From Nevskia sp. (GTDB taxonomy: Bacteria > Pseudomonadota > Gammaproteobacteria > Nevskiales > Nevskiaceae), in assembly GCA_019689635.1 (NCBI GenBank), contig JADGHB010000001.1, positions 62,001-126,000 of the forward strand: a stretch of 64,000 bases of DNA. Reading direction: 5' to 3'. The stretch's first letter is position 1; each line of letters opens with the position of its first letter. Shown here in pieces: positions 17,257 to 54,946 of this stretch. The translations under genes and the position numbers were made by a program. Under the pieces are notes generated by a model. It was not told the DNA's origin. It saw only the letters and a list, made by a program, of their open reading frames with translations, and searched no databases.

Positions 17257-18945
17257 ATGTCCGCCCCGTCCGCACCCCGCATGCACGATGACGGCACGCT
17301 GTCCGTCGAACCGCCGCTGGTCGTCGAACGCGCGGACGGCGGAAGCTGGGACGAGCGCTGCGACGTGCTGGTGCTGGGCTTCGGCGCGGCCGGCGCCGCC
17401 GCGGCCATCGCCGCGCGCGAAGCTGGCGCCCAAGTGCTGGTCGCCGAGCGCTTCGAAGGCGGCGGCGCCACCGCCAAGAGCGGCGGCGTGGTCTATGCCG
17501 GCGGCGGCACGCGCACGCAGCGCGCGCTGGGCTACGAGGACACGCCGGAGGAGATGTACCAATACCTGCGCCAGGAAACCGGCGACGCGGTGAGCGAAGC
17601 GACCCTGCGCCGCTTCTGCGAGGATTCGCGCGCCTTGATCGAGTGGCTGGAGTCGATCGGCGCGGATTTCAGCTCCGCCGCGCCGGCGCCGAAAACCTCC
17701 TATCCCAAGGACGGCATTTATCTGTACTACTCCGGCAACGAGTCGGTGCCGGCCTACGCGGCGAGCGCCAGGCCCGCGCCGCGCGGACACCGCACGCGCG
17801 GCCGCTGGATGTCCGGCAAGGTGCTGTTCGAGCTGCTGCGCGCGCGGGTGGCCGAGCTCGGCGTGCGCGTGCTGACGCAGGCGCCGGCGCGCCGGCTGAT
17901 CGTGGAGCGGCACACCGGCGCGGTGCTCGGCGCCGAACTCTGGCGGCTGCCGCCGGGTTCGGCGGCCGCGCGCCGGCATCTCAAGCTCATGCGCCGCGCC
18001 GAGGGCTTGCACAATCTCGCCCCGCGCCGCGCCGACCGCCTGCGCGCCAAAGCCGCCGAGCTGGAGCGACGCGCGGCGCAGCCCTGGCGCGTGCGGGCGC
18101 GGCGCGGCGTGGTGCTGGCCACCGGCGGCTTCATCTTCAACCGCGAAATGGTCGCGCGCCACGCGCCGCCGTTCCGCCGCGCCATGCGCCTGGGCGCCAC
18201 CGGCTGCGACGGCTCCGGCATCCGACTCGGACAAAGCGTGGGCGCGGCAGTCGCGCGCATGGACAAAGTCTCGGCCTGGCGCTTCATCAATCCGCCCAGC
18301 GCCTGGCCGCGCGGCCTCGTGGTGGACGCGCAGGGCACGCGCTTGTGCAACGAACAGGTTTACGGCGCCACGCTGGGCGTGGCGATGTGCGAGCGGCACG
18401 AGGGCCGCGCCTGGCTGATCCTCGATCGCGCTCTGCGCCGCGCGGCGATGAAGGAAGCGCTCTGCGGCGGGCTGTGGTGGTTCCAGAGCGTGCCGGCGAT
18501 CCTGCTGATGCTCGGCGCACCGCGCGCGCGGCGCATCGAGGATCTCGCGCGCAAGCTCGGCCTGCCCGCCGCGGCGCTGGCGCAGACCCTGGCGCGCTAC
18601 AACGAGGGCGCACGCGCCGGACGCGACGCGCTGGGCAAGAGCGCGGAACTCTTGCAGCCGCTGGACCGCGGGCCGTACTACGCGCTGGACCTTTCCGTCA
18701 GCAACCGCCGCTTCCCCTGTCCAGCGATCACGCTCGGCGGCCTGCGCGTGGACGAATCCTGCGGCGCGGTGCTGGACACGCAAAACCGCGCGCTCGTGGG
18801 GCTGTATGCGGCCGGACGCTGCGCGGTGGGCATCGCCTCCAACGGCTACGTCAGCGGGCTGTCCATCGCCGATTGCCTGTGGTCGGGTCGGCGCGCGGGC
18901 GCCGCCGCGGCGGGCGCCGCGAGCGCGGCGCTCAAGGTCGCCTGA
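17257..18945 (+). CDS. FAD-dependent 3-ketosteroid dehydrogenase-like flavoprotein (KstD-like paralog 2)
   Basis: CDVLVLGFGAAGAAAAIAAREAG; GGGATAKSGGVVYAGGGT; VSAWRFINPPSAWPRGL; GLYAAGRCAVGIASNGYVSGLSIADCLWSGR. Confidence 0.77.
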   Translation: MSAPSAPRMHDDGTLSVEPPLVVERADGGSWDERCDVLVLGFGAAGAAAAIAAREAGAQVLVAERFEGGGATAKSGGVVYAGGGTRTQRALGYEDTPEEMYQYLRQETGDAVSEATLRRFCEDSRALIEWLESIGADFSSAAPAPKTSYPKDGIYLYYSGNESVPAYAASARPAPRGHRTRGRWMSGKVLFELLRARVAELGVRVLTQAPARRLIVERHTGAVLGAELWRLPPGSAAARRHLKLMRRAEGLHNLAPRRADRLRAKAAELERRAAQPWRVRARRGVVLATGGFIFNREMVARHAPPFRRAMRLGATGCDGSGIRLGQSVGAAVARMDKVSAWRFINPPSAWPRGLVVDAQGTRLCNEQVYGATLGVAMCERHEGRAWLILDRALRRAAMKEALCGGLWWFQSVPAILLMLGAPRARRIEDLARKLGLPAAALAQTLARYNEGARAGRDALGKSAELLQPLDRGPYYALDLSVSNRRFPCPAITLGGLRVDESCGAVLDTQNRALVGLYAAGRCAVGIASNGYVSGLSIADCLWSGRRAGAAAAGAASAALKVA

Positions 18946-19015
18946 TCGAAATGGCCGGTCGGGTCGCGCCCGACGGCGGGGCCGGCACCAAGGCCGGCGT
19001 GCATGGGAGAAGAGC

Positions 19016-19801
19016 ATGGGACGCGTACAAGGCAAGGTCGCCATCGTCACCGGTGCCGCGAGCGGCGTGGGCGCGGAGGACGCGCGGCTGCTGGCGCGCG
19101 AGGGCGCCAAGGTGGTGCTGACCGACATCAACGAGGAGGCCGGCCGCGCGGTCGCCCAGGAGATTTGTTCGCAAAACGGGAGCGACGCGGCACTGTTCTT
19201 GAAGCACGACATCGCTTCGGAGGAGGACTGGAAGCGCGTGATCGCCGCCACCGAGGAGCGGTTCGGCGGACTCGACGTGCTGGTCAACAACGCGGCGATC
19301 CTGCTCTACGGCAACATCGAGGACACCGACTACGCCACCTGGCAGAAGATCCAGCGCGTCAACTCGGACGGCTACTTCCTGGGCTGCCACTACGGTCTGG
19401 CGGCGATGAAGCGGCGCGGCGCGGGGTCCATCGTCAACATGTCCTCGATGGCGGGCATCGGCGGCGTGTCCAGCTTCTGCGCCTACTCGGCGAGCAAGGG
19501 CGCGGTGGCGGCGCTCACGCGCTCGATCGCCGCGCACTGCCGCATGAACCTCTACAAGATCCGTTGCAACTCCATCCACCCCGACGGCATCGCCACGCCC
19601 ATGGTCACGGGCTTGCACCAGACCATGCCCAAGGGCAAGCACAGCGCGGTGCGCATGATGGATCCCAAGCAGATGCAGGCGCGCTTCGCCCAGCCGATCG
19701 ACATCGCCAACCTGGTGCTGTTTCTCGCCTCCGACGAATCGCGCTTCATCAACGGCGCCGAGCTGCGCATCGACAACGGCTACCTGATGTGGGCGGATTG
19801 A
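19016..19801 (+). CDS. SDR, hydroxysteroid dehydrogenase-like
   Basis: MGRVQGKVAIVTGAASGVGAEDARLLAREGAKVVLTD; YSASKGAVAALTRS; steroid context. Confidence 0.85.
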   Translation: MGRVQGKVAIVTGAASGVGAEDARLLAREGAKVVLTDINEEAGRAVAQEICSQNGSDAALFLKHDIASEEDWKRVIAATEERFGGLDVLVNNAAILLYGNIEDTDYATWQKIQRVNSDGYFLGCHYGLAAMKRRGAGSIVNMSSMAGIGGVSSFCAYSASKGAVAALTRSIAAHCRMNLYKIRCNSIHPDGIATPMVTGLHQTMPKGKHSAVRMMDPKQMQARFAQPIDIANLVLFLASDESRFINGAELRIDNGYLMWAD

Positions 19802-19881: not shown

Positions 19882-20913
19882 ATGAGCCGCCTGCACTACC
19901 ACCCGCTGGAAGTCCTCGAAGTGATCGAGGAGACCGCGGACGCGCGCACCCTGGTGTTCGCGGTGCCGCCGGCGCTGCGCGAGACCTTCCGCTTCAAGCC
20001 GGGCCAGCACCTGCAGTTGCACGTGCCCTGCGCCGCCACACCGCTGCCGCGCTGTTACTCGCTGACCGGAGCGCCGGAAGAAAGCGACCGGCTGCGGGTC
20101 ACGGTCAAGCGCATCAAGGACGGCCGCGCTTCCGGCTGGCTGGTGAGCGAACTCAAACCCGGCGACCGGCTGGACGTGGCGCCGCCGGCCGGGGTGTTCA
20201 CGCCGCGCTCGCTGGATGGGGAATTCCTGATGTTCGCCGCCGGTTCCGGCATCACGCCGGTCTATTGCATCCTGAACAGCGTGCTGGCACGCGGCCGCGG
20301 CCGCGTGCGGTTGATCTACGCCAACCGCGACGAGCGCAGCGTGATCTTCGCCGCCGCGCTCGCGCGCCTGGCGCGCGAGCATCCGCAGCGGTTGCAGGTG
20401 ATCCACTGGCTGGAGACGCTGCAAGGATTGCCGACCGCCGCGCTGCTCGCGCCGCTCGCCGCCGGCTGGGAGCGCGCCGAAAGTTATCTCTGCGGACCGG
20501 CGCCGTTCATGGATGCGGCGCAGGCGGCGCTGCACGCCCTGCACGTGCCGCACGCGCAGATCCACATCGAGCGCTTCGTCTCGCTGCCCGAGGACGCCGA
20601 CGAAGCGCCGCCGGCGGCGCCGGCGGCGGGCGGCCAAGACGTCGAGATCGAGGTCGAGCTCGACGGCGCCGTGCATCGCCTCGGCGCGCATCCCGGCGAA
20701 CTGGTGATCGAGGCGCTGGAGCGCGCCGGCCTGTCGCCGCCGTTCTCCTGCCGCGCCGGCGCCTGCGCCGCCTGCATGTGCAAGCTCGAGGAAGGCGCCG
20801 TCGAGCTGGCGCACAATCACGTGCTCGACGACAACGATCTCAAAGCGGGCTGGATCCTCGCCTGCCAGGCGATCCCCAAAAGCCCGCGGCTGAAGCTCAG
20901 CTATCCGCAATGA
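19882..20913 (+). CDS. kshB: 3-ketosteroid 9alpha-hydroxylase reductase component (FNR + C-terminal 2Fe-2S), KshB-like
   Basis: HPLEVLEVIEETADARTLVFAVPPALRETFRFKPGQHLQLHV; RCYSLTGAP; C-terminal CRAGACAACMCKLEEGAVELAHNHVL. Confidence 0.87.
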   Translation: MSRLHYHPLEVLEVIEETADARTLVFAVPPALRETFRFKPGQHLQLHVPCAATPLPRCYSLTGAPEESDRLRVTVKRIKDGRASGWLVSELKPGDRLDVAPPAGVFTPRSLDGEFLMFAAGSGITPVYCILNSVLARGRGRVRLIYANRDERSVIFAAALARLAREHPQRLQVIHWLETLQGLPTAALLAPLAAGWERAESYLCGPAPFMDAAQAALHALHVPHAQIHIERFVSLPEDADEAPPAAPAAGGQDVEIEVELDGAVHRLGAHPGELVIEALERAGLSPPFSCRAGACAACMCKLEEGAVELAHNHVLDDNDLKAGWILACQAIPKSPRLKLSYPQ

Positions 20914-22478
20914 GCGCCGGGGCGGACTCCACCGTACCGCAGGCGTTCGCGGCGAGCGCGGCACGCCACGCCGCGCGCACCGCGCTGGTCGGCGAAGACG
21001 GCCGCGCCCTGTCCTACGCCGAGCTCGACGCGCGGCGTATGCAGGCGGCGCGCGCGCTGCTCGCGCTGGGCGTGCACGCGGGCGAACGCGTGGCGATCTG
21101 GGCGCCCAACGGCATCGAGTGGGTGATCGCGGCGCTCGCCATCCACTCCGTGGGCGCGGTGCTGGTGCCGATCAACACGCGCATGAAAGGCGCGGAAGCG
21201 GCCGAGCTCCTCGCACGCAGCGGCGCGCGCGTGCTGTTCTGCGCCGGGCGCTTCCTCGGCGTCGATTACCCGGCGCTGCTGTCGGATTTCGCGCTGCCGA
21301 ATCTCGCCCAGCGCATCGTGTTCGGTCCCGCGCGCGCCGGCGAATGCGGCTGGCAGGATTTCCTGACGCGCGCCGCGGGCGTACCTGCCGCAGCGGTCGA
21401 AGCGCGCGTGCGGGCGCTGACGCCGGCCGACCGCATGGACATCCTCTACACCTCGGGCACCACCGGCGCGCCCAAGGGCGTGGTCACCGGCCACGGCCAG
21501 AACCTGCGCGTGATCGCCGAGTGGTCGCGCGTCATGGGCCTCGCCCCCCAAGACCAGTATCTGGTGGTCAATCCCTTCTTCCATTCTTTTGGCTACAAGG
21601 TCGGCTGGCTGGCCGGACTGCTCGCCGGCTGCACGGTGCGGCCGCACGCGGTGTTCGACGCGCGCGTCATCCTCCGGCGCATCGAACGCGAGCGTATCTC
21701 GGTGCTGCCCGGGCCGCCGACGCTGTTCGTGTCGCTGCTCGACGATCCGGCGCGCGCCGGCGCCGACCTGTCCTCGCTGCGCGCCACCATCACCGGCGCG
21801 GCGGCGGTCGCGCCCGCGCTGATCGAGCGCATCCGCGCGGAACTCGGCTTCGGGATCGTGCTGACCGGCTACGGCCTGACCGAGACTTGCGGCGTGGTCA
21901 CGCTGAGCGAGCCCGGCGACGACGCGCAGACCGTGGCGTTCACTTCCGGCAAGCCGATTCCGGACGTGGAAGTGCGTATCGTCTCCGCGGACAACCGGCC
22001 GCTGCCGCCGGGCGAGGCGGGCGAGATCGTGGTGCGCGGCTACAACGTGATGCAGGGCTATCTCGACGACCCGCAAGCCACCCGCGAGGCGATCGACGCG
22101 CACGGCTTTTTGCACACCGGCGACGTGGGCTGTCTCGACGCACGCGGTTATCTGCGCATCACCGACCGGCTCAAGGACATGTACATCTGCGGCGGCTTCA
22201 ACTGCTATCCCGCGGAGATCGAGCGGGCGCTCGCCGCGCATCCCGCGCTGGCGCAGACGGCGGTGATCGGCGTGCCCGACGCGCGCCTGGGAGAAGTCGG
22301 CAAAGCCTACGTGGTGCTGCGTCCCGGCGCGCGGCTGACGGCCGACGAACTGATCGCCTGGGCGCGAGCGCGCATGGCCAATTACAAGGTGCCGCGCGCC
22401 GTCGAGTTCGTGGCGAGTTTGCCGACCAACGCCTCGGGCAAGGTACTCAAGTACCGCCTGCGCGAGAGACAGCGATGA
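20910..22478 (+). CDS. fadD3: Acyl-CoA synthetase, FadD3-like (HIP-CoA ligase type)
   Basis: DILYTSGTTGAPKGVV AMP-binding motif; TGYGLTETCGVVTLSEPGDD; ITDRLKDMYICGGFNCYPAEIE; ATGA overlap with kshB. Confidence 0.77.
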   Translation: MSAGADSTVPQAFAASAARHAARTALVGEDGRALSYAELDARRMQAARALLALGVHAGERVAIWAPNGIEWVIAALAIHSVGAVLVPINTRMKGAEAAELLARSGARVLFCAGRFLGVDYPALLSDFALPNLAQRIVFGPARAGECGWQDFLTRAAGVPAAAVEARVRALTPADRMDILYTSGTTGAPKGVVTGHGQNLRVIAEWSRVMGLAPQDQYLVVNPFFHSFGYKVGWLAGLLAGCTVRPHAVFDARVILRRIERERISVLPGPPTLFVSLLDDPARAGADLSSLRATITGAAAVAPALIERIRAELGFGIVLTGYGLTETCGVVTLSEPGDDAQTVAFTSGKPIPDVEVRIVSADNRPLPPGEAGEIVVRGYNVMQGYLDDPQATREAIDAHGFLHTGDVGCLDARGYLRITDRLKDMYICGGFNCYPAEIERALAAHPALAQTAVIGVPDARLGEVGKAYVVLRPGARLTADELIAWARARMANYKVPRAVEFVASLPTNASGKVLKYRLRERQR

Positions 22479-22685: not shown

Positions 22686-23555
22686 ATGGACCGTCCGTTG
22701 AACGGCGTGGTCGCGGTCGTCACCGGCGCTTCGCGCGGTGCCGGCAAAGGGATCGCGCTGGCGCTCGGCGCGCAGGGTGCGACGGTTTACGTCACCGGCC
22801 GCTCGCAGCAGGAAGGCGACGCACCTCTGCCAGGCACGATCCACGCGACCGCCGCGGCGGTCACGCAGGCCGGCGGGCGCGGCATCGCGGTGGTCTGCGA
22901 CCACGCACGCGACCGCCAGGTGCGCGCGCTGTTCGAGCAGATCAAGCGCGAGCAGGACGGCCGGCTCGACATCCTGGTCAACAACGCCACCGTCATCCAC
23001 GACCGGCTCATCGACAAAGGACCGTTCTGGAAGAAGCCGCTGGCGCTGGTGGACATCCTCGAGGTGGGTCTGCGTTCGGCCTATGTGGCGAGCTGGTACG
23101 CGGCCAAGCTCATGGCGCGCAGAAAAAACGGGCTGATCGCCTTCACCTCGTCGTTCGGCGCGAGCTGCTACATGCACGGTCCCGCCTACGGCGCGCAGAA
23201 AGCCGGCGTCGACAAGTTGGCGCGCGACATGGCGGTGGATTTGCGGCCGTATCACGTCGCCGCGGTCTCGATCTGGATGGGCATGCTCAAGACCGAGCGC
23301 ACGCGCCGGGTGATGGACCAGGACCCGCAGAAATACGCCGGTTTCTGGGAAATCGCCGAAACGCCGGAGTTCACAGGGCGCCTGATCGCCGCGCTCTATC
23401 GCGACGACAAGCGCATGGAGAAATCCGGCCAGGTGCTGATCGGCGCCGAAGCCGCGCTGGAGTACGGCATCACCGACGAAGGCGGCAAGCAGCCGCCCTC
23501 GCACCGCGCCTTGCTCGGCGGCCCCGCGCCGGGCCATCCGGCGGTCGTCGAGTAG
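22686..23555 (+). CDS. SDR family oxidoreductase (DHRS1-like)
   Basis: GVVAVVTGASRGAGKGIALALGAQGATVYVTGRS; YGAQKAGVDKLARDMA. Confidence 0.85.
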   Translation: MDRPLNGVVAVVTGASRGAGKGIALALGAQGATVYVTGRSQQEGDAPLPGTIHATAAAVTQAGGRGIAVVCDHARDRQVRALFEQIKREQDGRLDILVNNATVIHDRLIDKGPFWKKPLALVDILEVGLRSAYVASWYAAKLMARRKNGLIAFTSSFGASCYMHGPAYGAQKAGVDKLARDMAVDLRPYHVAAVSIWMGMLKTERTRRVMDQDPQKYAGFWEIAETPEFTGRLIAALYRDDKRMEKSGQVLIGAEAALEYGITDEGGKQPPSHRALLGGPAPGHPAVVE

Positions 23556-23558
23556 GCG

Positions 23559-25004
23559 ATGCGCGCGTTCGTCGGCGTGCTGGGACTGACGGCCCTGCTG
23601 GCCGGCTGCGGTTCGAGCAGCTTGCCGGCGACGGATTCCGGCGCTGCGGCCGGTGCGGCGTTGCACCGCGAAGGGCGCTGGATGGTGGACGATCGAGGGC
23701 GCATCGTGCTGCTGCACGGCGTGAACGTGGTGTGGAAGCTCGCGCCTTATGCCCCGCCGGACAGCGCCGCGGGCTTCACCGCGGCGGACGCGGACTTTCT
23801 GGCGAACCAGGGTTTCAATGTCGTGCGCCTGGGCGTGCTGTTCGCCGGCGTGATGCCGCAACCGGGACAGATCGACGCAGGCTATCTCGCGCGCATCGAC
23901 CGCGTGGTGCGCCTGCTCGCGGCACGGCACCTCTGGGTGCTGCTCGACTTCCACCAGGACCAGCTCAACGAGAAATACCAGGGCGAAGGCTTTCCCGCCT
24001 GGGCGGTGGACGACGGCGGCCTGCCCAACGACGCCCATTACGGGTTTCCGCTCGACGAATTCCTGAGCGTGGCGCTGAACGCCGCCTACGACAATCTGTG
24101 GGCGAACAAAAACCAGGTGTGGGCGCACTACGCCGCGGCCTGGACGGCGGTGGCGAACCGCTGGAAAAACCAGCCGTACCTGCTCGGTTACGACCTGTTC
24201 AACGAGCCCTGGCCCGGCACGCGCTGGCCGACCTGTTTCGAAATCGACTGCACCGGGTTCGACGCCACGTTGCAACAGTTCTTCGACTCCGCGCTCGCCG
24301 GCGTGCGCGCGGCGGACACCGCGCACTTCGCCTTCTTCGAGCCGCAGCAGCTCTTCGACTTCGGCGCACCGAGCGGCTTCGCCGCCGAAAGCGACCCGCT
24401 GCTGGGCCTGTCCTGGCACGACTACTGCTCGGCCACGCTCACCGCTTCCAGCGGTCTGCCGGTGAACCTGCCGGACTGCGGGATCATCGAACCGCGCACC
24501 ATGAACAACGCCGACGCCCAGGTCGAACAGCTCGGCGCGGTTTCGCTGCTCACCGAATTCGGCGCCTCCGACGATCTGACCGACATCGCCCGCGTGGCAG
24601 ACCTCGCCGACCAGCATCGGGTCGGCTGGATCTACTGGGCCTACAAGTCTTTCGGCGACCCCACCGGCAGCGGCCAGGCCGAGAGTCTGTTCGCCGACGA
24701 CGCCGATTTCTCCACGCTCAAGCCCGGCAAGGCCGACATCCTGATCCGGCCCTACGCCCAGGCCATCGCCGGCACGCCGACGGCGATGCGCTTCGACCCC
24801 GCGACGAAAGTCTTCGCGCTCGACTACACGCCGAACGGCGCGACCGCGCCGACCGTGATCTTCCTGCCCGCCCGCCACTATCCGAACGGTTATTCCACGA
24901 GCGTGGCCGGTGGACAGGTCGTGTCGCCGGCCGGCAGCGCGCAACTCGAGATCGTCAACGATCCGGGCGCATCGAGCGTGCAGATCCAGGTTCAGCCCTT
25001 ATAG
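23559..25004 (+). CDS. GH5-family glycosidase, endoglycoceramidase-like, predicted lipoprotein
   Basis: Lipobox-like LLAGCGSS; HGVNVVWK; LFNEPWPG (acid/base Glu); LLTEFGAS (nucleophile Glu). Confidence 0.82.
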   Translation: MRAFVGVLGLTALLAGCGSSSLPATDSGAAAGAALHREGRWMVDDRGRIVLLHGVNVVWKLAPYAPPDSAAGFTAADADFLANQGFNVVRLGVLFAGVMPQPGQIDAGYLARIDRVVRLLAARHLWVLLDFHQDQLNEKYQGEGFPAWAVDDGGLPNDAHYGFPLDEFLSVALNAAYDNLWANKNQVWAHYAAAWTAVANRWKNQPYLLGYDLFNEPWPGTRWPTCFEIDCTGFDATLQQFFDSALAGVRAADTAHFAFFEPQQLFDFGAPSGFAAESDPLLGLSWHDYCSATLTASSGLPVNLPDCGIIEPRTMNNADAQVEQLGAVSLLTEFGASDDLTDIARVADLADQHRVGWIYWAYKSFGDPTGSGQAESLFADDADFSTLKPGKADILIRPYAQAIAGTPTAMRFDPATKVFALDYTPNGATAPTVIFLPARHYPNGYSTSVAGGQVVSPAGSAQLEIVNDPGASSVQIQVQPL

Positions 25005-25019
25005 ATCAGCCCTTATAGA
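24992..25019. repeat. Perfect 14-bp tandem duplication across the GH5 stop codon
   Basis: TCAGCCCTTATAGA x2 (24992-25005, 25006-25019). Confidence 0.95.
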
Positions 25020-25029
25020 GAGGAAACCC

Positions 25030-25809
25030 ATGGGCCGTTTGCAGGACAAGGTGGCGATCGTCACCGGCGGCGCGCGCGGCATGGGCGCGGCGACCGCGCG
25101 CGTGTTCGTCGCCGAAGGCGCCAAGGTGGCGATCGCCGACGTGCTCGACGAGCCGGGCGAGCGGCTGGCCCGCGAGCTGGGAACGCGCGCGCTGTTCCAG
25201 CATCACGACGTGAGCGACGAGGCGAGCTGGAGCCGGCTGATCGAAGTCGTCGAAGCGCGCCTGGGTCCGATCGACGTGCTGGTCAACAACGCCGGCGTGC
25301 TGCTGTTCAAGACCATCGCCGAGACCAGTCGCGCGGAGTTCGAGCGCGTGCTCGGCGTCAACTTGATCGGCTGTTTCCTCGGCACGCGGCTGGTCGGCGC
25401 GCGCCTGGTCACGCGCCGGCGCGGGGCCATCGTGAACGTCTCCTCGGTGGACGGCATGAAGGCCGCCAACGGTCTGGGCGCCTACTGCGCCAGCAAGTGG
25501 GCGGTGCGCGGCTTCACCAAGGTCGCGGCGATGGAGTTCGGCCACCGCGGCGTGCGCGTCAACTCGGTGCATCCCGGCGGCATCGACACCGCGATGGGCA
25601 ACCCCTACGCCGAGCCCAAGGCCGAGGTCAACAAGCGCTATGCCATGGTGCCATTGCAGCGCGTGGGCGAGCCGGAGGAAGTGGCGCGCGTGTCACTGTT
25701 TTTGGCCAGCGACGAAGCGAGCTATCTCAACGGCGCCGAGATCGCCGTGGACGGTGGCATGCTGTGCGGGCAGTATTACCTGGGCTTTCCGGGGGCGCCG
25801 GGCGTTTGA
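25030..25809 (+). CDS. SDR, 3alpha/20beta-hydroxysteroid dehydrogenase-like
   Basis: MGRLQDKVAIVTGGARGMGAATARVFVAEGAKVAIADV; YCASKWAVRGFTK; VHPGGIDTAM. Confidence 0.87.
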   Translation: MGRLQDKVAIVTGGARGMGAATARVFVAEGAKVAIADVLDEPGERLARELGTRALFQHHDVSDEASWSRLIEVVEARLGPIDVLVNNAGVLLFKTIAETSRAEFERVLGVNLIGCFLGTRLVGARLVTRRRGAIVNVSSVDGMKAANGLGAYCASKWAVRGFTKVAAMEFGHRGVRVNSVHPGGIDTAMGNPYAEPKAEVNKRYAMVPLQRVGEPEEVARVSLFLASDEASYLNGAEIAVDGGMLCGQYYLGFPGAPGV

Positions 25810-27634: not shown

Positions 27635-28395
27635 CCGAGGAAGGCTTGCCCGCCGTCCAGCGCGATGGACTGGCCGTTGACGTAGGCGCAGTCGTCGGAG
27701 CACAGCACGGCCACGAAGCGGCCGATGTCGCGCTCGCAGTCTCCGACGCGCGCCAGCGGCACGGTGGCGAGGAAGGCCGCGGCCTCCTGCGGCCGCGCCT
27801 GCGTCCAGCCGTCCATCGCCGGCGAGTTGGCCAGCGGCAGGATGGCATTGGTGCGAATGCCGTCGCGTCCCCACTCGCAGGCCGCCGCGCGGGTCAGCAT
27901 GCGAATCGCCTCCTTCACGGCGGCGTAAGCGCCATAGCCGCTCATGTCCCAACGCCTGGCCGCAGGACTCGCGAGATTGACGATGCAGCCGCCCTCTTTC
28001 TTCAGATGCGGATGGGCGAGCTTCATCAGCCGGAAGGTCGCCAGCGGACCAGACTCCCAGCCCGCGGCGAAGGATGCATCGCTCACCCGCGCCAGCGGCC
28101 CGAGCGGCACTTCCTGGGCGTTGTTGACCAGGATGTGCAAGCCGCCGAAGCGCTCGACGGTGCGCGCCACCGTCTGTGCCAGCGCGGCGGCATCCTTCAC
28201 GTCGCAGGCCAGCGCCAGCGCCTGCCCGCCGCGCGCAGCGATTTCACCGGCGACCGCCTGAAGCTTGGGCAGACTGCGCCCCGCCAGCGCCACGCACGCG
28301 CCCGCCTCGGCGAGCGCCAGCGCGATGCCGCGGCCCACGCCCTGGCCGGCGCCGGTGACCAAGCCGACGCGGCCGTCGAGCGCGCCGTTCACCAC
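27631..28395 (-). CDS. SDR family oxidoreductase
   Basis: GRVGLVTGAGQGVGRGIALALAEAG; YGAYAAVKEAIRML; ATGA overlap with the OYE gene; GTG start. Confidence 0.85.
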   Translation of the reverse strand: MVNGALDGRVGLVTGAGQGVGRGIALALAEAGACVALAGRSLPKLQAVAGEIAARGGQALALACDVKDAAALAQTVARTVERFGGLHILVNNAQEVPLGPLARVSDASFAAGWESGPLATFRLMKLAHPHLKKEGGCIVNLASPAARRWDMSGYGAYAAVKEAIRMLTRAAACEWGRDGIRTNAILPLANSPAMDGWTQARPQEAAAFLATVPLARVGDCERDIGRFVAVLCSDDCAYVNGQSIALDGGQAFLG

Positions 28396-30773
28396 CGCAC
28401 GATGCCGGTGAGGCCGTAAGTCACCGGGTCGATGAAATAGGCGTCGGTGAGATGGCCGAAACCGGGGCCGAAGTCGATGAAGTTGGCCGCCACGTCCTCG
28501 TTCGCGCAGTTACGGCACCACAAGGCCAGCTCGCCATAGGCGGATGATCCCAGCGGAATCTGCGCCAAGGACAGACGCAGATTGAGCAGGCCGTAGGCCT
28601 TCACGCGCGTATCGGCGGCGACCTGCGCGGCGGGATTGAAGTCGGGTCCCGCCGGATCGAGCTGGTAGGGATAGGTATAGATCGAGCTGGTGTAAGCGTA
28701 ATCGGCGAGCGCGCGCACGCGGCCCCAGGCGAAGCGGGCCAGCTCGCTGTCGATCACGACATTGAAGCTGTTGCGCGGCGCGTGCGGAAAGGCACGGTCG
28801 TTCTTGTAGTCGTGCGGCTGGCCGGTCCCGGGATCGGTGTCGATGAACTGGTCGTAGCGCGGGTCCAGCCAGGCGTAGTTGGCGCGCACCGTGGTGCCGG
28901 CCACCGGCACGAAGGCGCCTTCCAGCTCGAGACCCTTGATCGTCGCGCGACCGGCGTTGCGGATCACGGTGGCGGCGGCGCCGCTGCCGACGAACACCGA
29001 CTCCTGCAGATCGGTGGCCTGATTGCGGAACAACGCCAGACTGAGCTGCGCGCGATCGTCGAGGAAGTTGCTCTTGGCGCCCAGCTCCAGCGACTTCTGC
29101 TTCTCCGGCTTGAACGGGGTCAGCGTTTCCTGGACGTTGGCCGCCGAGGACTGGGTGGGGTCGCTGAACTCGCCGTTGAAGCCGCCGGACTTGAAGCCAT
29201 AGGCGTAGCGCGCATACACGTTGAGTTGCTCGCTGAACTTCCAGGCCGCGGCGAATACCGGCGTGGTCGCCTCGAAGCTGCGGCTGCCATGCGTGCCGGC
29301 AGGGATCAAATAATTGAACGTTCCCGGCGCCGCCATGCAGTTCGGATAGAACGCGGAATTGCAGCCGAAGATGCGATCCAGCCGCTTGCGCTCCTCGGTA
29401 TAGCGAACGCCGGCGGTCAGCGTCAGCGGATCGAGTGGCCGGTAGTCCAACTGAGCGTAGGCGGCGCCGGCCTTGGTGCCGGTACCGTACTGCGAATCGT
29501 AGAGCACGCCCTTGGAGAAGAATTCCTGCGGATTGTTGGTGCGGCCGTCGTCGAAGAAGTAGTACAGGCCGCCGACGTAATTGAAGCGGCCCTTGTGCCC
29601 CACCCACTGCAGTTCCTGCGACCATTCGCGGTACTTGGTGAAGCGCTGGGTGAAGGCGATGTCGTTGGGCGAGCCGTCGAGGTCCAGCGAGTCGCGCCAG
29701 TCGAGATGGCGGTAGGCGCTGATCGACTTCAAGGTATCCTCCGGCGTAGCGTTCCAGGTCAGGGTCAGCGAATGGCCCTGCACCCGCGAGATCTCGAACA
29801 CCGGCGCGTTGATGTCCGCCACCGTCTGGCGCTGCTGCGAGACGTAGGACGCCTCGGTCGGATAGCCGACGAAGGTGAAAAACGCGTTGTCCGCCCGATA
29901 GAGCTGGGCGTAGGCGGGATTCTGGTTGATGTCGGAGTGATCGAAGCGGTAATCGGCGGAGAAGTTCGGGCTGAACTCGAACAGACCCGCCAGGCGCACG
30001 CCGGCGTTCTTGCGGTTGTTCAGCGCCTGGGCCGAACTGCCGGCGGCGCCGGTGACCCAGCCGTCGCGCTGCTCGGCGCGCGCGCCGATGGAGAAACTGG
30101 CGATGCCCCACTTCGGCAAATCCACCGAGACTTTTTCGGTCAGCTCGTTGTAGTTGCCCAGCTCCAGGCTCGCCTGTCCGCCGAACACGCCGCTGGGCTT
30201 GGGGGTGACGAGGTTGATCGCCCCGGCGATGGTATTGCGGCCGTAGAGCGTGCCCTGCGGACCGCGCAGCACCTCGATGCGCGCCAGATCGACCACGTCG
30301 AACACCGAGCCCTGCGCCTTGCCGATGTACACGCCGTCGAGATAGATGCCGACCGCGGGATCCCAGTAGATCGCGGGATTGATCTCGGTGATGCCGCGGA
30401 TGGCGATCTGCGAGATGGTGTTGTTGGACGGGGTCTTGCTCACTTGCAGGCCCGGGCCGAGCGCATTGAGGTCGAGCACGTTGTCGATGCCACGCGACTC
30501 GATCTGCTTCTGGGAAAGCGCCGTGACGGCGATCGGCACGTCTTGCAGCTTTTGTTCGCGCTTTTGCGCGGTGACCACCACGGTCTCCAGCGTTTTCACT
30601 TCCGCCGGCGGCTTGGCCTGCGCCTGCGCCGCAGGCGACGGCGTCTCGCTTCCCGCCGCGGAATTCTGTTCCTGCGACGGCGCGGCGTCGGGCGACGAAC
30701 TTTGCTGCGCCGGCAGCGCGGGCGCAACCAGCATCCCCAGGGTCAATGACGCAAGCCACTTCGCGATGTGCAT
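28389..30773 (-). CDS. TonB-dependent receptor, candidate steroid uptake
   Basis: Signal peptide MHIAKWLASLTLGMLVAPALPAQ; ETVVVTAQKREQKLQDVPIAVTALSQKQIESRG (TonB box/plug); DLARIEVLRGPQGTLYGRNTIAGAINLVT. Confidence 0.93.
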   Translation of the reverse strand: MHIAKWLASLTLGMLVAPALPAQQSSSPDAAPSQEQNSAAGSETPSPAAQAQAKPPAEVKTLETVVVTAQKREQKLQDVPIAVTALSQKQIESRGIDNVLDLNALGPGLQVSKTPSNNTISQIAIRGITEINPAIYWDPAVGIYLDGVYIGKAQGSVFDVVDLARIEVLRGPQGTLYGRNTIAGAINLVTPKPSGVFGGQASLELGNYNELTEKVSVDLPKWGIASFSIGARAEQRDGWVTGAAGSSAQALNNRKNAGVRLAGLFEFSPNFSADYRFDHSDINQNPAYAQLYRADNAFFTFVGYPTEASYVSQQRQTVADINAPVFEISRVQGHSLTLTWNATPEDTLKSISAYRHLDWRDSLDLDGSPNDIAFTQRFTKYREWSQELQWVGHKGRFNYVGGLYYFFDDGRTNNPQEFFSKGVLYDSQYGTGTKAGAAYAQLDYRPLDPLTLTAGVRYTEERKRLDRIFGCNSAFYPNCMAAPGTFNYLIPAGTHGSRSFEATTPVFAAAWKFSEQLNVYARYAYGFKSGGFNGEFSDPTQSSAANVQETLTPFKPEKQKSLELGAKSNFLDDRAQLSLALFRNQATDLQESVFVGSGAAATVIRNAGRATIKGLELEGAFVPVAGTTVRANYAWLDPRYDQFIDTDPGTGQPHDYKNDRAFPHAPRNSFNVVIDSELARFAWGRVRALADYAYTSSIYTYPYQLDPAGPDFNPAAQVAADTRVKAYGLLNLRLSLAQIPLGSSAYGELALWCRNCANEDVAANFIDFGPGFGHLTDAYFIDPVTYGLTGIVRW

Positions 30774-30862: not shown

Positions 30863-32605
30863 TTAAGCGGCGGCCGCCGCGCGCGGCGTGGCGCTTTCGC
30901 GCGCCGCGGCCAGGTCCTGCGCCGCGAGATAGCCGAAAGTCATCGCCGGCCCCAGGGTGGCGCCCGGCCCCGCGTAGGTCCGGCCCATCACCGCCGCCGA
31001 ACAATTGCCGATCGCGTACAACCCCGGGATGGCGCGGCCGTCCTCGCGCAACACGCGCGCGTGCGCGTCGGTGAGAAGTCCGCCCTTGGTGCCGATCTCG
31101 CCGGGATACAGGGGCATGGCGTAGTACGGCGCCTGTGCGAGCGGGGCGAGACAGGGATTGGGCTTGATCTTGGGATCGGCGTAGTAGCGGTCGAAGACGT
31201 TGCCGCCCTTGCCGAACTCCGGGTCGCGTCCTTGCGCGGCGTAGCGGTTCATGTTCGCCACCGTTTCCGCAAGGCCCGCAGCGTCCACGCCGATTTTCTT
31301 CGCGAGCGCTTGCAGCGTATCGGCTTTGAAGTACACCTTGCCGTTCCATTCCGCCGGCAGCTTGGCGTCCGGTTGCAGGCTGGCGGGCAACAGAGGGCCG
31401 CAGGGATAGTTCTTGCGGAAGCGCGCGTCGAACACCATCCAGCAGGGAATGGCCGCCCCGCTTCTCGCCTGCTCCGCGTAAATGGCGTACACCGCCTCGG
31501 TGTAAGGCGCCGCTTCGTTGAAGAAGCGCCGGCCGGCGCCATTGACGATCACGCAGCCGGGCAGCGAGCGCTCCACGAACAGCGCGGTGGCCACCGCGCT
31601 GCCCGGCACCGGCACGGTGGGCGCACCCCAGGTGAGGTTCATGAACCGGGTCGCCGCGCCAAGCCGCAGGCCGGCGCGCAAACCGTCGCCGGTGTTGCAG
31701 CCGGGAGCGGCGGTCCACTCCGCGCGCGTGGGCCGGGGCAGATACTGCTCGCGCAGCGCCTGGTTCGACTCGAAACCGCCGCTCGCCAGAATCACCCCGC
31801 GCCGCGCGCGCAGGCGCAGGCGCCGGCCGCCCTGCACGGCGACGACGCCGGTCACGCGGCCGTCTTCTTCCACGAGCGACTCCAGGGCGGTTTCGTATTC
31901 CAGCGGTATGGCGTTTTCCAGCATGGCCAGGCGCAGTTGGGCCACCAGGCTCTGGCCCAGCACCAGCCGGCGGTCGCGCCAGGTCTTGCGCCGCCAGGAA
32001 AAATCCGTCCAGTAGCGCCCCATGAGCTTGAGGGTGAGCCGCACCCAGCCGGGGCCGCGCGCGAACAGCGTGTGCGCCTCGACCTGGTCCATGCTGACGC
32101 GGCCCATGACCAGCGTGCCGCGATAAGGCTCGCGCTGGCGGAAAAACTCCGCGCCCAGACGCCGCGCGTCGAACGCCACCGGCTCCATGGTGCGCGCGCC
32201 GGGTTTGCCGCCCGGCGCCTCGGGGAAATAATCGGGGTACTTGGCCACCGCGCGAAAGCGCACGCCGTAGCGGCTTTCCATGAAGTGCAGCATCGCGCGC
32301 GCCCCGCGCACGTAGGCGATAAGCTTTTCTTCCGGCACCTCGCCGCCGGTGAGGTGCTTGAGATAAGTCAGCGCCTCTTCTTCGGAGTCCGGCACGCCGG
32401 CCGCCGCCATCTGCTCGTTGCAGGGAATCCAGATGCCGCCGCCGGACACCGCGCTGGTGCCGCCGTACACGCGGTCCTTCTCGATCAGCACCACCGACAA
32501 GCCTTGCGCGCGACAGCACAAAGCCGCGGTCATGCCGCCGGCGCCCGAGCCGACCACGATCACGTCGTATTCCCGCTGCGCGTCCGCCATTCGTTGGTCG
32601 TTCAT
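30863..32605 (-). CDS. kstD: 3-ketosteroid delta1-dehydrogenase, KstD
   Basis: YDVIVVGSGAGGMTAALCCRAQGLSVVLIEKDRVYGGTSAVSGGGIWIPCN; C-terminal GLYAIGNCSAAVMGRTYAGPGATLGPAMTFGYLAA. Confidence 0.85.
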   Translation of the reverse strand: MNDQRMADAQREYDVIVVGSGAGGMTAALCCRAQGLSVVLIEKDRVYGGTSAVSGGGIWIPCNEQMAAAGVPDSEEEALTYLKHLTGGEVPEEKLIAYVRGARAMLHFMESRYGVRFRAVAKYPDYFPEAPGGKPGARTMEPVAFDARRLGAEFFRQREPYRGTLVMGRVSMDQVEAHTLFARGPGWVRLTLKLMGRYWTDFSWRRKTWRDRRLVLGQSLVAQLRLAMLENAIPLEYETALESLVEEDGRVTGVVAVQGGRRLRLRARRGVILASGGFESNQALREQYLPRPTRAEWTAAPGCNTGDGLRAGLRLGAATRFMNLTWGAPTVPVPGSAVATALFVERSLPGCVIVNGAGRRFFNEAAPYTEAVYAIYAEQARSGAAIPCWMVFDARFRKNYPCGPLLPASLQPDAKLPAEWNGKVYFKADTLQALAKKIGVDAAGLAETVANMNRYAAQGRDPEFGKGGNVFDRYYADPKIKPNPCLAPLAQAPYYAMPLYPGEIGTKGGLLTDAHARVLREDGRAIPGLYAIGNCSAAVMGRTYAGPGATLGPAMTFGYLAAQDLAAARESATPRAAAAA

Positions 32606-32662
32606 GTCCGCCTCGTCTCGCGCCAGCGCCCTCGGGGTGGCCATCCCGCGAGCGCCGCGGTT

Positions 32663-33868
32663 TCAGATGAAGAAATCGGTGTTGTCGCGTCCGAGCAATA
32701 CGCCCCCGTAGTTGCGCCCGAACTGCTCCGGGTTGTTGGCGTAGTGCGCGCGCGCGGCGTAGATGTCCAGCAGGTAGCGATACAGCGGAAAGTCGGTGAA
32801 GATGCCGCGCCCGCCGCAGGCCGAGAACAATTGGTAGGCGTGGCGCGCGCAGCGCTCCACCACCTGGGCCGCCTGGTGGCGGAAGTGCAGGCGCTCGCGG
32901 ACATCGTCGAGCGGTACGCCGTTGCGAATCTTGTTCATCAGCGTTTCGAAGTTGCGGTTGAGCACCAGCTTCATTTCGTCGATGGCCAGCGCGGTCTCGG
33001 CCGCCGCCAGTTGCGCCGGCGCTTGCTCGGCGGTCTTGTTGCCCATGTCGCCGACGCGCACCTTGGCGAATTCGATGAACAGATTCAGCGCCCCCTGCAG
33101 GCCGCCGATCGCAGCGCTCGACACGGCGCGCACGAAGATCTGGCCGAAAGGCAGCTTGTAGAGATCCGACGTGAACACGTGACGGCCGGGATTGGTCCCG
33201 GCGAAGCCGTCCACGGCTCGGTGCGTACGGTACTCCGGCACGAAGGCGTCCTTGACCACGACGTCCTTGGAGCCGGTGCCCTTGAGCCCCATCACATGCC
33301 AGGTGTCGACCACTTCGAAATCGCGGCGCGGCACGAGGAACGTGCGGTATTCCGGCGGCTGGCCTTCGTTGAAGACGAGCCCGCCGAGGAACACCCAGTC
33401 GCAGTGATCGATGCCGCTGGAGAATCCCCAACGGCCGGAGAATCTGAAGCCACCCTCCACGGGCTTGACTTGGCCCTTGGGCATGTAGGTCGAGGCGATC
33501 AGCACCGAGCGGTCCTTGCCCCACACGTCCTCGGCGGCGCGCGGATCGAACAGCGCGATCTGCCAGTTGTGCACGCCGATCACGCCGTAGATCCAGGCGG
33601 TGGACATGCAGCCTTCCGCCAGCGTCATACAGATCTCGTAGAAGACCCGCGGGTCCATCTCGTAGCCGCCGTACTGCTTGGGCTTGAGCACGTCGAAGAA
33701 ACCCGCGTCCTTGAGCTCCGCGACGGTTTCCGCCGGCACGCAGCGCGCCTCCTCGCACTGCCGGGCACGGCTTGCCAGCACCGGTACCATCTCCCGCGCG
33801 CGCTGGATCAGCGCCTGCGGAGTCGCCAGGGTTGCGGTGGTGGCGATTTTCTGAGTCTGACTGGGCAC
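32663..33868 (-). CDS. hsaA: Flavin-dependent monooxygenase of the acyl-CoA dehydrogenase fold, HsaA-like
   Basis: AGFFDVLKPKQYGGYEMDPRVFYEICMTLAEGCMSTAWIYGVIGVHNWQIALF; GRWGFSSGIDHCDW; GTG start likely at 33868. Confidence 0.85.
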   Translation of the reverse strand: MPSQTQKIATTATLATPQALIQRAREMVPVLASRARQCEEARCVPAETVAELKDAGFFDVLKPKQYGGYEMDPRVFYEICMTLAEGCMSTAWIYGVIGVHNWQIALFDPRAAEDVWGKDRSVLIASTYMPKGQVKPVEGGFRFSGRWGFSSGIDHCDWVFLGGLVFNEGQPPEYRTFLVPRRDFEVVDTWHVMGLKGTGSKDVVVKDAFVPEYRTHRAVDGFAGTNPGRHVFTSDLYKLPFGQIFVRAVSSAAIGGLQGALNLFIEFAKVRVGDMGNKTAEQAPAQLAAAETALAIDEMKLVLNRNFETLMNKIRNGVPLDDVRERLHFRHQAAQVVERCARHAYQLFSACGGRGIFTDFPLYRYLLDIYAARAHYANNPEQFGRNYGGVLLGRDNTDFFI

Positions 33869-34068
33869 GGCGTTTCCTCGCTCAAAGATGCACCGGCGCG
33901 GCACGCCGGAGTTTTGCTGTCCGCCTTTGTCACAGAAAAGCGCGCGCGCGGCTTCGTCCGAATTGAGGAGAACGCGCGCCGAGGAACGATGCGGCTTTCA
34001 CTCAAACGGGTGAGGCCGCCTGCAGGCGCTTTGCACACACTGCGCGCATTCTCGCCGGGAGCCGCAAC

Positions 34069-35181
34069 ATGGCCGTGGTGATTCGCAGCGCGAGCGCTTC
34101 GGCGCCCGCCCACAAGATCGAAGCCGCACCGCCGCCGCAGCGCTATGCGCGCGGCTGGCACTGCCTGGGACTGGCCGCCGATTACGCCGACGGCAAGCCG
34201 CATGCGCTGGACATCTTCGGCACGCGCCTGGTGGCGTTCCAGGGTCAGGACGACAAGCAGTTCTACGTCCTCGACGCCTGGTGTCCGCACATGGGTGCCG
34301 ATCTCGGCATCGGCTGCGTCAAGGGCAACTCGGTGGTGTGCAAGTTCCACGGCTGGGCCTGGGGCGGCGACGGTGCCTGCACCGAGATCCCCTACGCCAA
34401 GCGCATTCCGCCCAAGGCGCGCATCAAGTCCTGGCCGACCCTGGTCGAAAACAAGCTGCTGTTCGTGTGGAACGACCCCGAAGGCAATCCGCCCGATCCG
34501 GCGCAGAAGATCCCGCGCATCGAGCCGGTGTTCCAGCCCGAGGAGTGGAGCGACTGGTCGCTGGTGAAATGGACCATCCACAACAACTGCCGCGAGCTGA
34601 TCGACAACATCGCCGACGTCGCGCACTTCGTCTCGGTGCACGGCTCCGACAACGTCGTTTACTTCGCCAACCTGTTCGAAGGCCACAAGGCCACCCAGGT
34701 GATGGTCGGCGCCAACCGTCGGCTCGGCGGCGGCGAGTATCTCACCACCATCGCCAGCTACTACGGTCCGGCTTACCAGATCACGCACATGTTCGGGAAG
34801 ATGGGCGGCCATCCGGTGGAGTCCATCCTCATGAACTCGCACACGCCGATCGACCCCAACCGTTTCGAGCTGCGCTTCGGCGTGCTGGTCAAGAAGTTCC
34901 CCGGCATGAGTGCCGAGCAGTGCGAGGCGATGGTCAAGCAGTACGTGGACCTGACCAACAAAGCCTTCAGCGAGGACGTCGAGATCTGGCACAACAAGGT
35001 GCGCATCGACAACCCGCTGCTGTGCGACGGCGACGGGCCGGTGTACCAGAACCGCCAGTGGTACGAGCAGTTCTACATGGACGCCGCGTCGGTTCCGGCA
35101 GAACTCAAGCAGCGCCGCTTCTTCGAAATCGACCACGGCATCGAGCGCAAGCCCGAGATCCGCCACGCCTTCGACAACTGA
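34069..35181 (+). CDS. kshA: Rieske oxygenase, 3-ketosteroid 9alpha-hydroxylase oxygenase component
   Basis: Rieske CPHMGADLGIGCVKGNSVVCKFHGW; NNCRELIDNIADVAHFVSVHG non-heme iron region. Confidence 0.9.
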   Translation: MAVVIRSASASAPAHKIEAAPPPQRYARGWHCLGLAADYADGKPHALDIFGTRLVAFQGQDDKQFYVLDAWCPHMGADLGIGCVKGNSVVCKFHGWAWGGDGACTEIPYAKRIPPKARIKSWPTLVENKLLFVWNDPEGNPPDPAQKIPRIEPVFQPEEWSDWSLVKWTIHNNCRELIDNIADVAHFVSVHGSDNVVYFANLFEGHKATQVMVGANRRLGGGEYLTTIASYYGPAYQITHMFGKMGGHPVESILMNSHTPIDPNRFELRFGVLVKKFPGMSAEQCEAMVKQYVDLTNKAFSEDVEIWHNKVRIDNPLLCDGDGPVYQNRQWYEQFYMDAASVPAELKQRRFFEIDHGIERKPEIRHAFDN

Positions 35182-35234: not shown

Positions 35235-35266
35235 ACCGCCGTCCACCGGGCGACGGCGGTTTTTTT
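35235..35266 (+). terminator. Rho-independent terminator downstream of kshA
   Basis: ACCGCCGTC-CACCGGGC-GACGGCGGT followed by TTTTTT; perfect 9-bp stem. Confidence 0.9.
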
Positions 35267-35384
35267 GCGTTCCAGAGATGGCCTGCGGTTTGGCGCACGC
35301 ATCCGTGCGCGCGTGTTTCGCGCGCGCCCGCTGCGACGGGGAGCTCCTTCCCGCCGCACCGCGCCGCGCGCGTGGAGGTGCGCG

Positions 35385-39527: not shown

Positions 39528-39585
39528 GGGACGGCGACGAGCCGCCCTCGGCGCGCGGCCGGCGCGTGCATTGCTTCATTGCCGC

Positions 39586-40209: not shown

Positions 40210-40224
40210 TCGGGGTTCCCTCGG

Positions 40225-53226: not shown

Positions 53227-54024
53227 TCAATCGGCCCGATCTTTTTTGTTGACGTTCGCTGCGTCCAGAAACGCCGGCCGCTCGCCGCCGCCGTGCAGCA
53301 CCAGGTTGCTGCCGGAGACATAAACGGCTTCCGCCGAAGCGAGCCAGACGCAGGCCTCGCCCACGTCGCGCGGCTCGGCCAGGCGCCCGAGCGGAATGGT
53401 GCGCGCCACCGCCGCGACGCCGGCTTCGTCGCCGTAGTGCAAGTGCGCTTGTTCGGTGCGCACCGGCCCGGGGCTGACCGCCACCACCCGCACTTTCGGC
53501 GCCCATTCCACGGCCAGCGACTGCACGAGCGAGAGCACGCCGGCCTTGGCCGCGCCATAGGCGGCGCTGCCGGGCGAAGGGCGCAAGGCGCTCACGCTGG
53601 CGATGAACACGATCACGCCCCCCGCGTCCTGCCGCTGCATGCGGGCGTTGGCCTGTTGCGCCAGGTGCAGCGGCGCCAGCAGGTTGAGCGCGACGATCTT
53701 TTCGTGGAACCGCGGCGAGGCCTCGGCGGCGAGCGCGTAAGGCGCGCCGCCGGCGTTGTTGACCAGCACGTCGAGCGCTCCGGCGCGGCGCTCGAGCTCG
53801 GCGAACAGCTTCTCGATCTGCCCGGCGTCGCGCACGTCGCAGGCGATGAACTCCGCGGTCTGCCCTTGCGCGTGCGGCAGTTGCGCGGGCTGGGTACGGC
53901 CGCAGACGAACACGCGGTCGCCGCGCGCGAGAAAGCGCTCGCTGATGCCGCGCCCCACGCCCTTGGCGCCGCCGGTGACGAGGACCACTCTGCTTTGCAC
54001 GCGCCTTTCCGTTTTCCTGGCCAT
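53227..54024 (-). CDS. SDR family oxidoreductase
   Basis: RVVLVTGGAKGVGRGISERFLARGDRVFVCGR; YGAAKAGVLSLVQS. Confidence 0.85.
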   Translation of the reverse strand: MARKTERRVQSRVVLVTGGAKGVGRGISERFLARGDRVFVCGRTQPAQLPHAQGQTAEFIACDVRDAGQIEKLFAELERRAGALDVLVNNAGGAPYALAAEASPRFHEKIVALNLLAPLHLAQQANARMQRQDAGGVIVFIASVSALRPSPGSAAYGAAKAGVLSLVQSLAVEWAPKVRVVAVSPGPVRTEQAHLHYGDEAGVAAVARTIPLGRLAEPRDVGEACVWLASAEAVYVSGSNLVLHGGGERPAFLDAANVNKKDRAD

Positions 54025-54106
54025 GGCTATCGTAGGTCAGACGCCCCGGGCATCCGTACTGCAAAAGGACGAAGCCGCGCGGCGACGCGGCGACCATCAT
54101 GCACGC

Positions 54107-54946
54107 ATGGACGATCGCCGCGCCAAACCCGTTCCCGAAGGTCGTTACGCCACGCTGCCCAACGGCTACCGCATCCACTATCTCGACGAGGGCCAGGGCC
54201 CGGTGGTCGTGTTCCTGCACGGCTCGGGCAACGGCGCGTGCGGCTACAGCAACTTCAAGGGCAACTATCCGTATCTGGTCGCCAATGGCTACCGCTGCAT
54301 CGTCCCCGACCTGATCGGCTACGGCTACTCCGACAAGCCGGCCGACGTGGAATACGCGCTGTCGTTCTTCGTCGAATGCGTGCAGCAGACGCTGGACGCG
54401 ATCGGCGTGGAGCAATACACGCTGGTCGGCAATTCGCTCGGCGGCGCCATCGCGCTGGGTCTGGCGCTCGACCACCCGCAGAGCGTGGAACGACTGGTGC
54501 TGATGGCGCCGGGTGGCTTGAACGACCTGCCCGATTATCTGGCGATGCCCGGCATGCAAGCGATGTTCGGGCTGTTCAACTCGGGCACGCCGGTCAGCGA
54601 GGCGCGCCTGAAGGAATTTTTCATCAAGGCTTTCGTGGTCGATCCGGCCTGCGTGGACGATGCGCTGGTCCACGAGCGCTACGAATTGATGAAACTGCAG
54701 AATCCGCAGGTCATCAAGACCATGAAGGTGCCCAACTTGGTGGAGCGCCTTGGCGAGATCAAATGCCCGGCGCTGGGACTTTGGGGCATCCACGATCGGA
54801 TGATGCCCGAAAGCGGCATCCTGCGCTTGGCCAAAGGACTGCCGAACCTGCGCTTGGTGCTGGTGCCCAACTGCGGCCACTGGGTGATGATCGAACACCG
54901 CGACCTGTTCAATCGTCTGGTGCTGGATTTCCTCAAGAACGGCTGA
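54107..54946 (+). CDS. hsaD: Meta-cleavage product hydrolase, HsaD/TesD-like
   Basis: HGSGNGACGYSNFKGNYPYLVANGYRCIVPDLIGYGYSDKP; LVGNSLGGAIALGLALDHP; VPNCGHWVMIEH. Confidence 0.87.
   Translation: MDDRRAKPVPEGRYATLPNGYRIHYLDEGQGPVVVFLHGSGNGACGYSNFKGNYPYLVANGYRCIVPDLIGYGYSDKPADVEYALSFFVECVQQTLDAIGVEQYTLVGNSLGGAIALGLALDHPQSVERLVLMAPGGLNDLPDYLAMPGMQAMFGLFNSGTPVSEARLKEFFIKAFVVDPACVDDALVHERYELMKLQNPQVIKTMKVPNLVERLGEIKCPALGLWGIHDRMMPESGILRLAKGLPNLRLVLVPNCGHWVMIEHRDLFNRLVLDFLKNG

Follow-up and report, generated by a model that had tools for sequence, protein, structure and literature searches.

Genes for endoglycoceramidase-type enzymes of glycoside hydrolase family 5 (GH5) are repeatedly linked to steroid ring-degradation genes in the order Nevskiales. 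We found one such gene inserted into a steroid-catabolic operon of a Nevskia-like MAG (2.8 Mb, 98.5% complete), where it is the single copy of its type. The gene lies within the 64-kb stretch of DNA analyzed here, which we call the window. The sequence evidence tips toward a role for the encoded enzyme in steroid-glycoside utilization, with steroid-glycoside hydrolysis as its predicted activity. In plants and fungi, steroids commonly occur as steryl glycosides and steroidal saponins, yet most work on bacterial steroid catabolism has used free steroids. The recurrence of GH5 genes in the steroid clusters of the order suggests that sugars may be stripped from glycosylated steroids before the steroids are catabolized.

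A GH5 lipoprotein gene within a steroid operon

The window GH5 gene is an intact open reading frame (Table 1), and its GC3 (0.88) and GC2 (0.48) are usual for genes of the window. Its product contains a Cellulase GH5 domain (Pfam PF00150, 1.2e-24, 87.7 bits against a curated cut-off of 23.5) and a Glyco_hydro_5_C domain (PF18564, 7.8e-18, 65.2 bits against a curated cut-off of 22). A sequence-only reading of this DNA had described an endoglycoceramidase-like GH5 lipoprotein with the catalytic motifs LFNEPWPG and LLTEFGAS and an N-terminal lipobox. The Pfam domains, the fold, and the best matches agree with that label. The motifs contain N215/E216 and E333, respectively, and all of the catalytic residues are present. 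In an alignment of 35 homologs, K60, H132, D134, N215, E216, H287, Y289, E333, and W360 are invariant. The two catalytic glutamates and the above-threshold domain place the protein in family 5. Engineered (substrate-trapping) mutants in PDB 5j14 and 2osy align with E333 and E216 of the window protein. Given the invariant catalytic and −1 residues and the aligned trapping mutants, the enzyme is expected to act as a retaining beta-glycosidase whose −1 subsite binds glucose. The lipobox, TALLAGC with Cys17, closes a hydrophobic N-terminal stretch, and this combination (a regex match) identifies the protein as a bacterial lipoprotein.

Table 1. Coordinates and supporting matches of the GH5 gene and nearby genes in the window
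Feature	Position	Strand	Details
FAD_binding_2 oxidoreductase	17257..18945	+	PRK07121 family
SDR, upstream and co-directional	18806..19801	+	
KshB/PaaE-like ferredoxin reductase	19882..20913	+	
FadD3-family acyl-CoA ligase	20910..22478	+	NCBIfam NF005801, 732 bits vs cut-off 657
SDR1, short-chain dehydrogenase	22686..23555	+	conserved beside fadD3 across the order
GH5, endoglycoceramidase-I-like lipoprotein	23559..25004	+	481 aa, intact ORF, ATG start
Active-site residues of GH5	general acid/base E216, nucleophile E333		−1 subsite K60/H132/D134/N215/H287/Y289/W360
SDR2	25030..25809	+	best PDB matches Rv2002 (1nff) and 3alpha/20beta-hydroxysteroid dehydrogenase (2hsd)
TonB-dependent receptor	28389..30773	-	candidate uptake route
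KstD, 3-ketosteroid delta1-dehydrogenase	30863..32644	-	PDB 7p18, 4e-200
HsaA-like flavin monooxygenase oxygenase	32663..33904	-	NF045629, 370 bits vs cut-off 450 (below)
KshA, 3-ketosteroid 9alpha-hydroxylase oxygenase	34069..35181	+	KshA_C 2.8e-74; PDB 4qdf, 4e-110
HsaD-like C-C hydrolase (C-terminal part of ORF)	53756..54946	+	
HsaG-like acetaldehyde dehydrogenase	56284..57195	+	

The fadD3-SDR1-GH5-SDR2 arrangement forms an operon inside a steroid gene region that holds kstD, hsaA, kshA, and hsaD. Judged by the KstD, KshA, HsaA-like, HsaD-like, and FadD3 matches, the neighbors of the GH5 gene are bona fide steroid-catabolic genes, which bears out the steroid-operon setting originally assigned to it. 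The originally reported gaps are also exact. The GH5 ATG follows the end of SDR1 by 3 bp, and the GH5 stop codon precedes the SDR2 ATG (25030) by 25 bp. Further upstream, the fadD3 ATG overlaps the stop codon of the preceding reductase gene. A scan for promoters found none, and terminator counts equaled those of shuffled sequence. The GH5 gene is probably co-transcribed with its operon neighbors.

Relationship to endoglycoceramidases and sterylglucosidases

We compared the window protein with characterized GH5 enzymes. Among solved structures, endoglycoceramidase I from Rhodococcus equi was closest (E-value 4e-76), followed by endoglycoceramidase II (1.5e-29) and an endogalactoceramidase-type enzyme (2e-21). 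In NCBIfam, the sole family match was endoglycoceramidase I at 366 bits, which is below the equivalog cut-off of 700 (NF051847). An AlphaFold model of the protein (pLDDT 91.3, pTM 0.90) retrieved endoglyco- or endogalactoceramidases at Foldseek ranks 1-15, and generic GH5 enzymes gave TM scores of ~0.5 or less. The protein thus falls nearest to the endoglycoceramidase type in fold and sequence, and it has the GH5 C-terminal beta-sandwich.

The nearest characterized relative is endoglycoceramidase I from R. equi 103S (PDB 5ccu, 5j14, and 5j7z), with 37% identity in the structural alignment and TM scores of 0.82/0.88. Both proteins combine a GH5 TIM barrel with a C-terminal beta-sandwich and share their catalytic residues. 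Unlike endoglycoceramidase I, the window protein is a proteobacterial lipoprotein encoded inside a steroid operon, and it scores under the equivalog threshold. Endoglycoceramidase II (PDB 2osx, GH5_28) and endogalactosylceramidase (PDB 6jyz, GH5_29 according to the literature) share the fold and catalytic residues, with TM scores of 0.73-0.76 and 0.71, but are clearly farther away at 24-28% identity.

The sequence-only reading had also counted fungal enzymes that cleave steryl glucosides among the relatives of endoglycoceramidase-type GH5 enzymes. For the window protein, that kinship holds as a shared GH5 superfold and is otherwise distant, with endoglycoceramidase I the nearer enzyme. The fungal sterylglucosidases Sgl1 (7lpo) and SglA (8exd) gave profile matches of 4.9e-17 and 3.3e-14. 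Their Foldseek TM scores were 0.70-0.75 when normalized to the query and 0.48-0.56 when normalized to the target. They are 13-15% identical to the window protein and ~300 residues longer (~780 vs 481 aa). In Sgl1/SglA-type enzymes a cap encloses the steryl-glucoside pocket, and Sgl1 contacts glucose through Lys47, His142, Asn269, Glu270, Trp570, and Glu587 (PMC8497620). The window protein lacks this extra mass. Identity, size, and target-normalized TM together rule out membership in the fungal Sgl1/SglA type (GH5_12).

Recurrent linkage to steroid genes within the order

We compared the window proteins with the surroundings of GH5 relatives and mapped the positions of GH5 and hsaA in 85 genomes of the order. 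An intact GH5 gene lies within 10 kb of kshA, hsaA, kstD, or hsaD in 15 of the 85 genomes (G000 and those listed in the next sentence), or in 16 if a decayed copy is included. In genera other than that of the window, GH5 is placed between kshA and hsaA, in many cases only 0.1 kb away from hsaA, in G040, G025, G036, G069, G073, G074, G075, G067, and G080; it adjoins kshA and a LuxR-type gene in G023 and G076, follows kstD in G070 and G072, and sits by hsaD/hsaG in G081, as do second copies in G075 and G067. The decayed remnant (L059 9714-10847) is found beside hsaA-kstD in G022, whose intact GH5 gene is located elsewhere (L033). The insertion points observed are kshA-GH5-hsaA, kstD-GH5, hsaD-GH5-SDR, GH5-kshA, and SDR1-GH5-SDR2. 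Steroid-linked GH5 genes are spread over about seven genera and about five tree lineages of the order. The link to steroid catabolism that had been noticed at one locus therefore recurs well beyond it, and its recurrence across genera rules out chance proximity in the window. This tight linkage to kshA, kstD, hsaA, and hsaD marks GH5 as a component of steroid-catabolic operons.

A tree of 54 GH5 rows contained five changes of the label "steroid locus," all of them forced by well-supported branches. Shuffling the labels gave a mean of 14.8 changes, and 0 of 500 shuffles were as low as 5. The forced changes and the differing insertion points indicate that GH5 was linked to steroid genes several separate times. 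Across the 85 genomes, hsaA is present in 30 of 35 GH5 carriers vs 15 of 50 non-carriers (Fisher p 3e-7), although the Fisher and binomial figures are naive because the genomes are related and phylogeny is uncorrected. Five GH5-carrying Nevskia genomes, from the genus of the window, lack both hsaA and a KshA match above the family cut-off, and 15 hsaA-positive genomes of the order lack GH5. The lipobox regex matched 16 of 17 steroid-locus members vs 18 of 35 other rows, which take in non-lipoprotein actinobacterial sequences.

The homologs also differ in two loops. In the main steroid-linked clade, the loop after W148 has 26 residues vs 20-22 in other homologs, and 23-26 hydrophobic residues separate the cysteines after the HxYC motif vs 16-18 elsewhere. 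Both loops are short in the window protein. The GH5 of G066 belongs to the main clade and has long loops with no steroid neighbors observed, so loop length tracks phylogeny and by itself is no proof of substrate.

At two loci from different genera, an Abhydrolase_10 protein is encoded between GH5 and hsaA (L045 7238-8698 and L084 11098-12516; 64% identical). This protein may act as an esterase on acylated steryl glycosides.

We also examined GH5 genes outside the order. In 369 genomes sampled evenly across the class, the gene occurred only in the window genome and in G091, which has no clear steroid genes at its GH5 locus and no KshA in its genome. Sampling of 397 genomes of Actinobacteria found the gene in 17, and kshA, kstD, or hsaA homologs lay beside none of the 20 loci examined in this group. 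Steroid linkage was thus seen at 0 of 21 loci examined outside the order, where the family is rare. We conclude that steroid linkage is a trait of the order and not of this gene family as a whole. A family-wide steroid function is ruled out by the actinobacterial loci, G091, and several Nevskia lineages without steroid genes.

Separate recruitment of the window gene

The four closest homologs of the window GH5 (from G001, G003, G006, and G008) share 67-68% identity with it over the alignment. Their neighbors, on short contigs, are a MarR/EmrAB-type efflux operon, a flavin monooxygenase gene, or XdhC genes rather than steroid genes, and the clade of the window GH5 was otherwise not found beside steroid genes. 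All six related genomes checked (G003, G006, G008, G012, G014, and G025) contain the fadD3/SDR1/SDR2 order without an intervening GH5. The gene therefore entered the window operon secondarily, exactly between SDR1 and SDR2. The tree and the GH5-free operon in relatives rule out that the gene was inherited at this position from the main kshA-GH5-hsaA clade. At the GH5 stop codon, a 14-bp sequence (TCAGCCCTTATAGA) is perfectly duplicated in tandem (24992-25019). The duplication coincides with the 3' junction of the presumed insertion and may be a scar of that event.

The efflux genes flanking closest homologs at L027, L029, and L030 form a conserved MarR and EmrAB/TolC-type operon, hinting at a possible xenobiotic- or saponin-response role there.

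Proposed function and alternatives

In our model, the window GH5 would be an envelope-anchored retaining beta-glycosidase of the endoglycoceramidase I type that is presumably exposed at the cell surface. It would cut the bond between the reducing-end sugar, probably glucose given the conserved −1 subsite, and a hydrophobic aglycone, and it may do so in an endo or exo mode. The likeliest physiological substrate would be a steroid glycoside, such as a steryl glycoside, a steroidal saponin, or another 3-O-glycosylated steroid. The adjacent SDR2 is a candidate for oxidizing the freed 3-OH to give a 3-ketosteroid. Its likeness to 3alpha/20beta-hydroxysteroid dehydrogenase fits this step because removal of a 3-O-glycan yields a 3-hydroxysteroid. 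The 3-ketosteroid would then enter the 9,10-seco pathway (KstD, KshAB, HsaA, HsaD, and FadD3). Within the order, GH5 appears to have been brought repeatedly under the control of steroid-catabolic operons.

The genome bears on which aglycones might be used. Its two P450s both match best to CYP51/CYP120 at the PDB level, and neither resembles CYP125 at that level. Phytosterols with an alkyl side chain may thus not be fully degradable in this genome, which makes intact phytosteryl glucosides less certain substrates than side-chain-less steroids, bile-type steroids, or sapogenins. These last three are equally possible aglycones.

A related strategy is found in Sphingobium sp. RC1, which pairs saponin glycosidases (GH3, GH39, GH78, and GH106) with steroid catabolism (PMC10653915). 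As proposed here, the RC1 system first removes sugars, then oxidizes the 3-OH and degrades the rings, and its hydrolases carry export signals. It differs in the enzyme families used, and GH5 is not mentioned in the main text of that report (PMC10653915). A search of the literature yielded no relevant paper on endoglycoceramidase together with saponin, or on steroid degradation in Nevskia.

Recurrent operon linkage, the lipoprotein export signal of 16 of 17 steroid-locus members, the hydroxysteroid-type SDR, the lack of a neutral ceramidase match, and the Sphingobium precedent all count toward steroid glycosides as substrates. Against them stands the nearest characterized enzyme, which acts on glycosphingolipids. 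The window GH5 might accordingly be a true endoglycoceramidase that frees oligosaccharides from plant, fungal, or protist glycosphingolipids, and it would lie among steroid genes because both kinds of substrate come from eukaryotic membranes and are co-induced. Endoglycoceramidase I, its top match in fold and sequence, was solved with GM1/GM3, EndGlycCerase is its only NCBIfam match, and many other GH5 carriers among the steroid degraders of the order encode a neutral ceramidase. However, its family score is far under the equivalog cut-off, the window genome contains no match to the neutral ceramidase family PF04734 at 98.5% completeness, and a general glycolipid enzyme is not expected beside ring-degradation genes in separate lineages. 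We consider this explanation unlikely.

The unlinked closest homologs, the GH5 carriers without kshA or hsaA, and the CYP51/CYP120-like P450s also weigh against a steroid-glycoside substrate. Homologs in genomes that lack kshA or hsaA, and others beside efflux pumps, TonB/FecR systems, or different oxidoreductases, would suit a beta-glucosidase with broad specificity toward hydrophobic substrates (glycosides of steroids, triterpenoids, flavonoids, or hopanoids, or other glycolipids), for which the steroid operon is one of several regulatory homes. We doubt this reading to a similar degree, since it leaves the recurrent linkage to ring-degradation genes unexplained and the other recurring neighborhoods are confined to near-identical sister loci. 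It is very improbable that the window GH5 is a chance passenger, a gene that happened to settle in a long operon and contributes nothing to steroid use. Such an origin would fit the absence of other steroid links in its clade and the occurrence of the operon in relatives without the gene. Against it, the insertion is precise, intact, and co-directional, with a 3-bp gap and no loss of catalytic residues, and steroid loci house at least four further GH5 lineages.

Steroid-glycoside hydrolysis by the window enzyme leads to a broader and more tentative proposal, which we regard as plausible but short of probable. The steroid-linked enzymes may constitute an undescribed class of bacterial, envelope-anchored GH5 steroid-glycosidases that arose several times from endoglycoceramidase-type enzymes. 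They would deglycosylate 3-O-glycosylated steroids and pass the aglycones to the 9,10-seco pathway, and the two long loops of the main clade, which flank the active site, would form the steroid pocket. If the steroid-glycoside reading is correct, the missing deglycosylation step of this steroid-degrading order would gain both a genetic marker and an enzyme family. The reading would also supply bacterial GH5 enzymes for steroid glycosides, useful in saponin processing, and correct automatic "endoglycoceramidase" annotations.

Other genes in the window

Several other window genes are of interest. A co-directional Sulfotransferase_3-family gene (35265-36626, +) lies directly 3' of kshA, and its product is possibly a steroid or glycolipid sulfation enzyme. 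Inside the steroid gene region, between kshA and a LuxR-type gene, is a copper-handling block (37125-43052) encoding a P-type ATPase with YHS and heavy-metal domains, a cytochrome, CopB, and a multicopper oxidase. An Old-yellow-enzyme protein (26393-27952, -) is related to mycofactocin OYE and BaiCD and is kept near kstD, at 68-72% identity, in several genomes of the order. The same steroid gene region encodes a DUF3604 protein (PF12228, 1e-171; 51202-53190, -). A 1535-aa SF1-type helicase (10448-15055, -) has a C-terminal MTES_1575 nuclease domain and a GC3 below that of its surroundings, and from these features it looks like an anti-phage or restriction-type gene.
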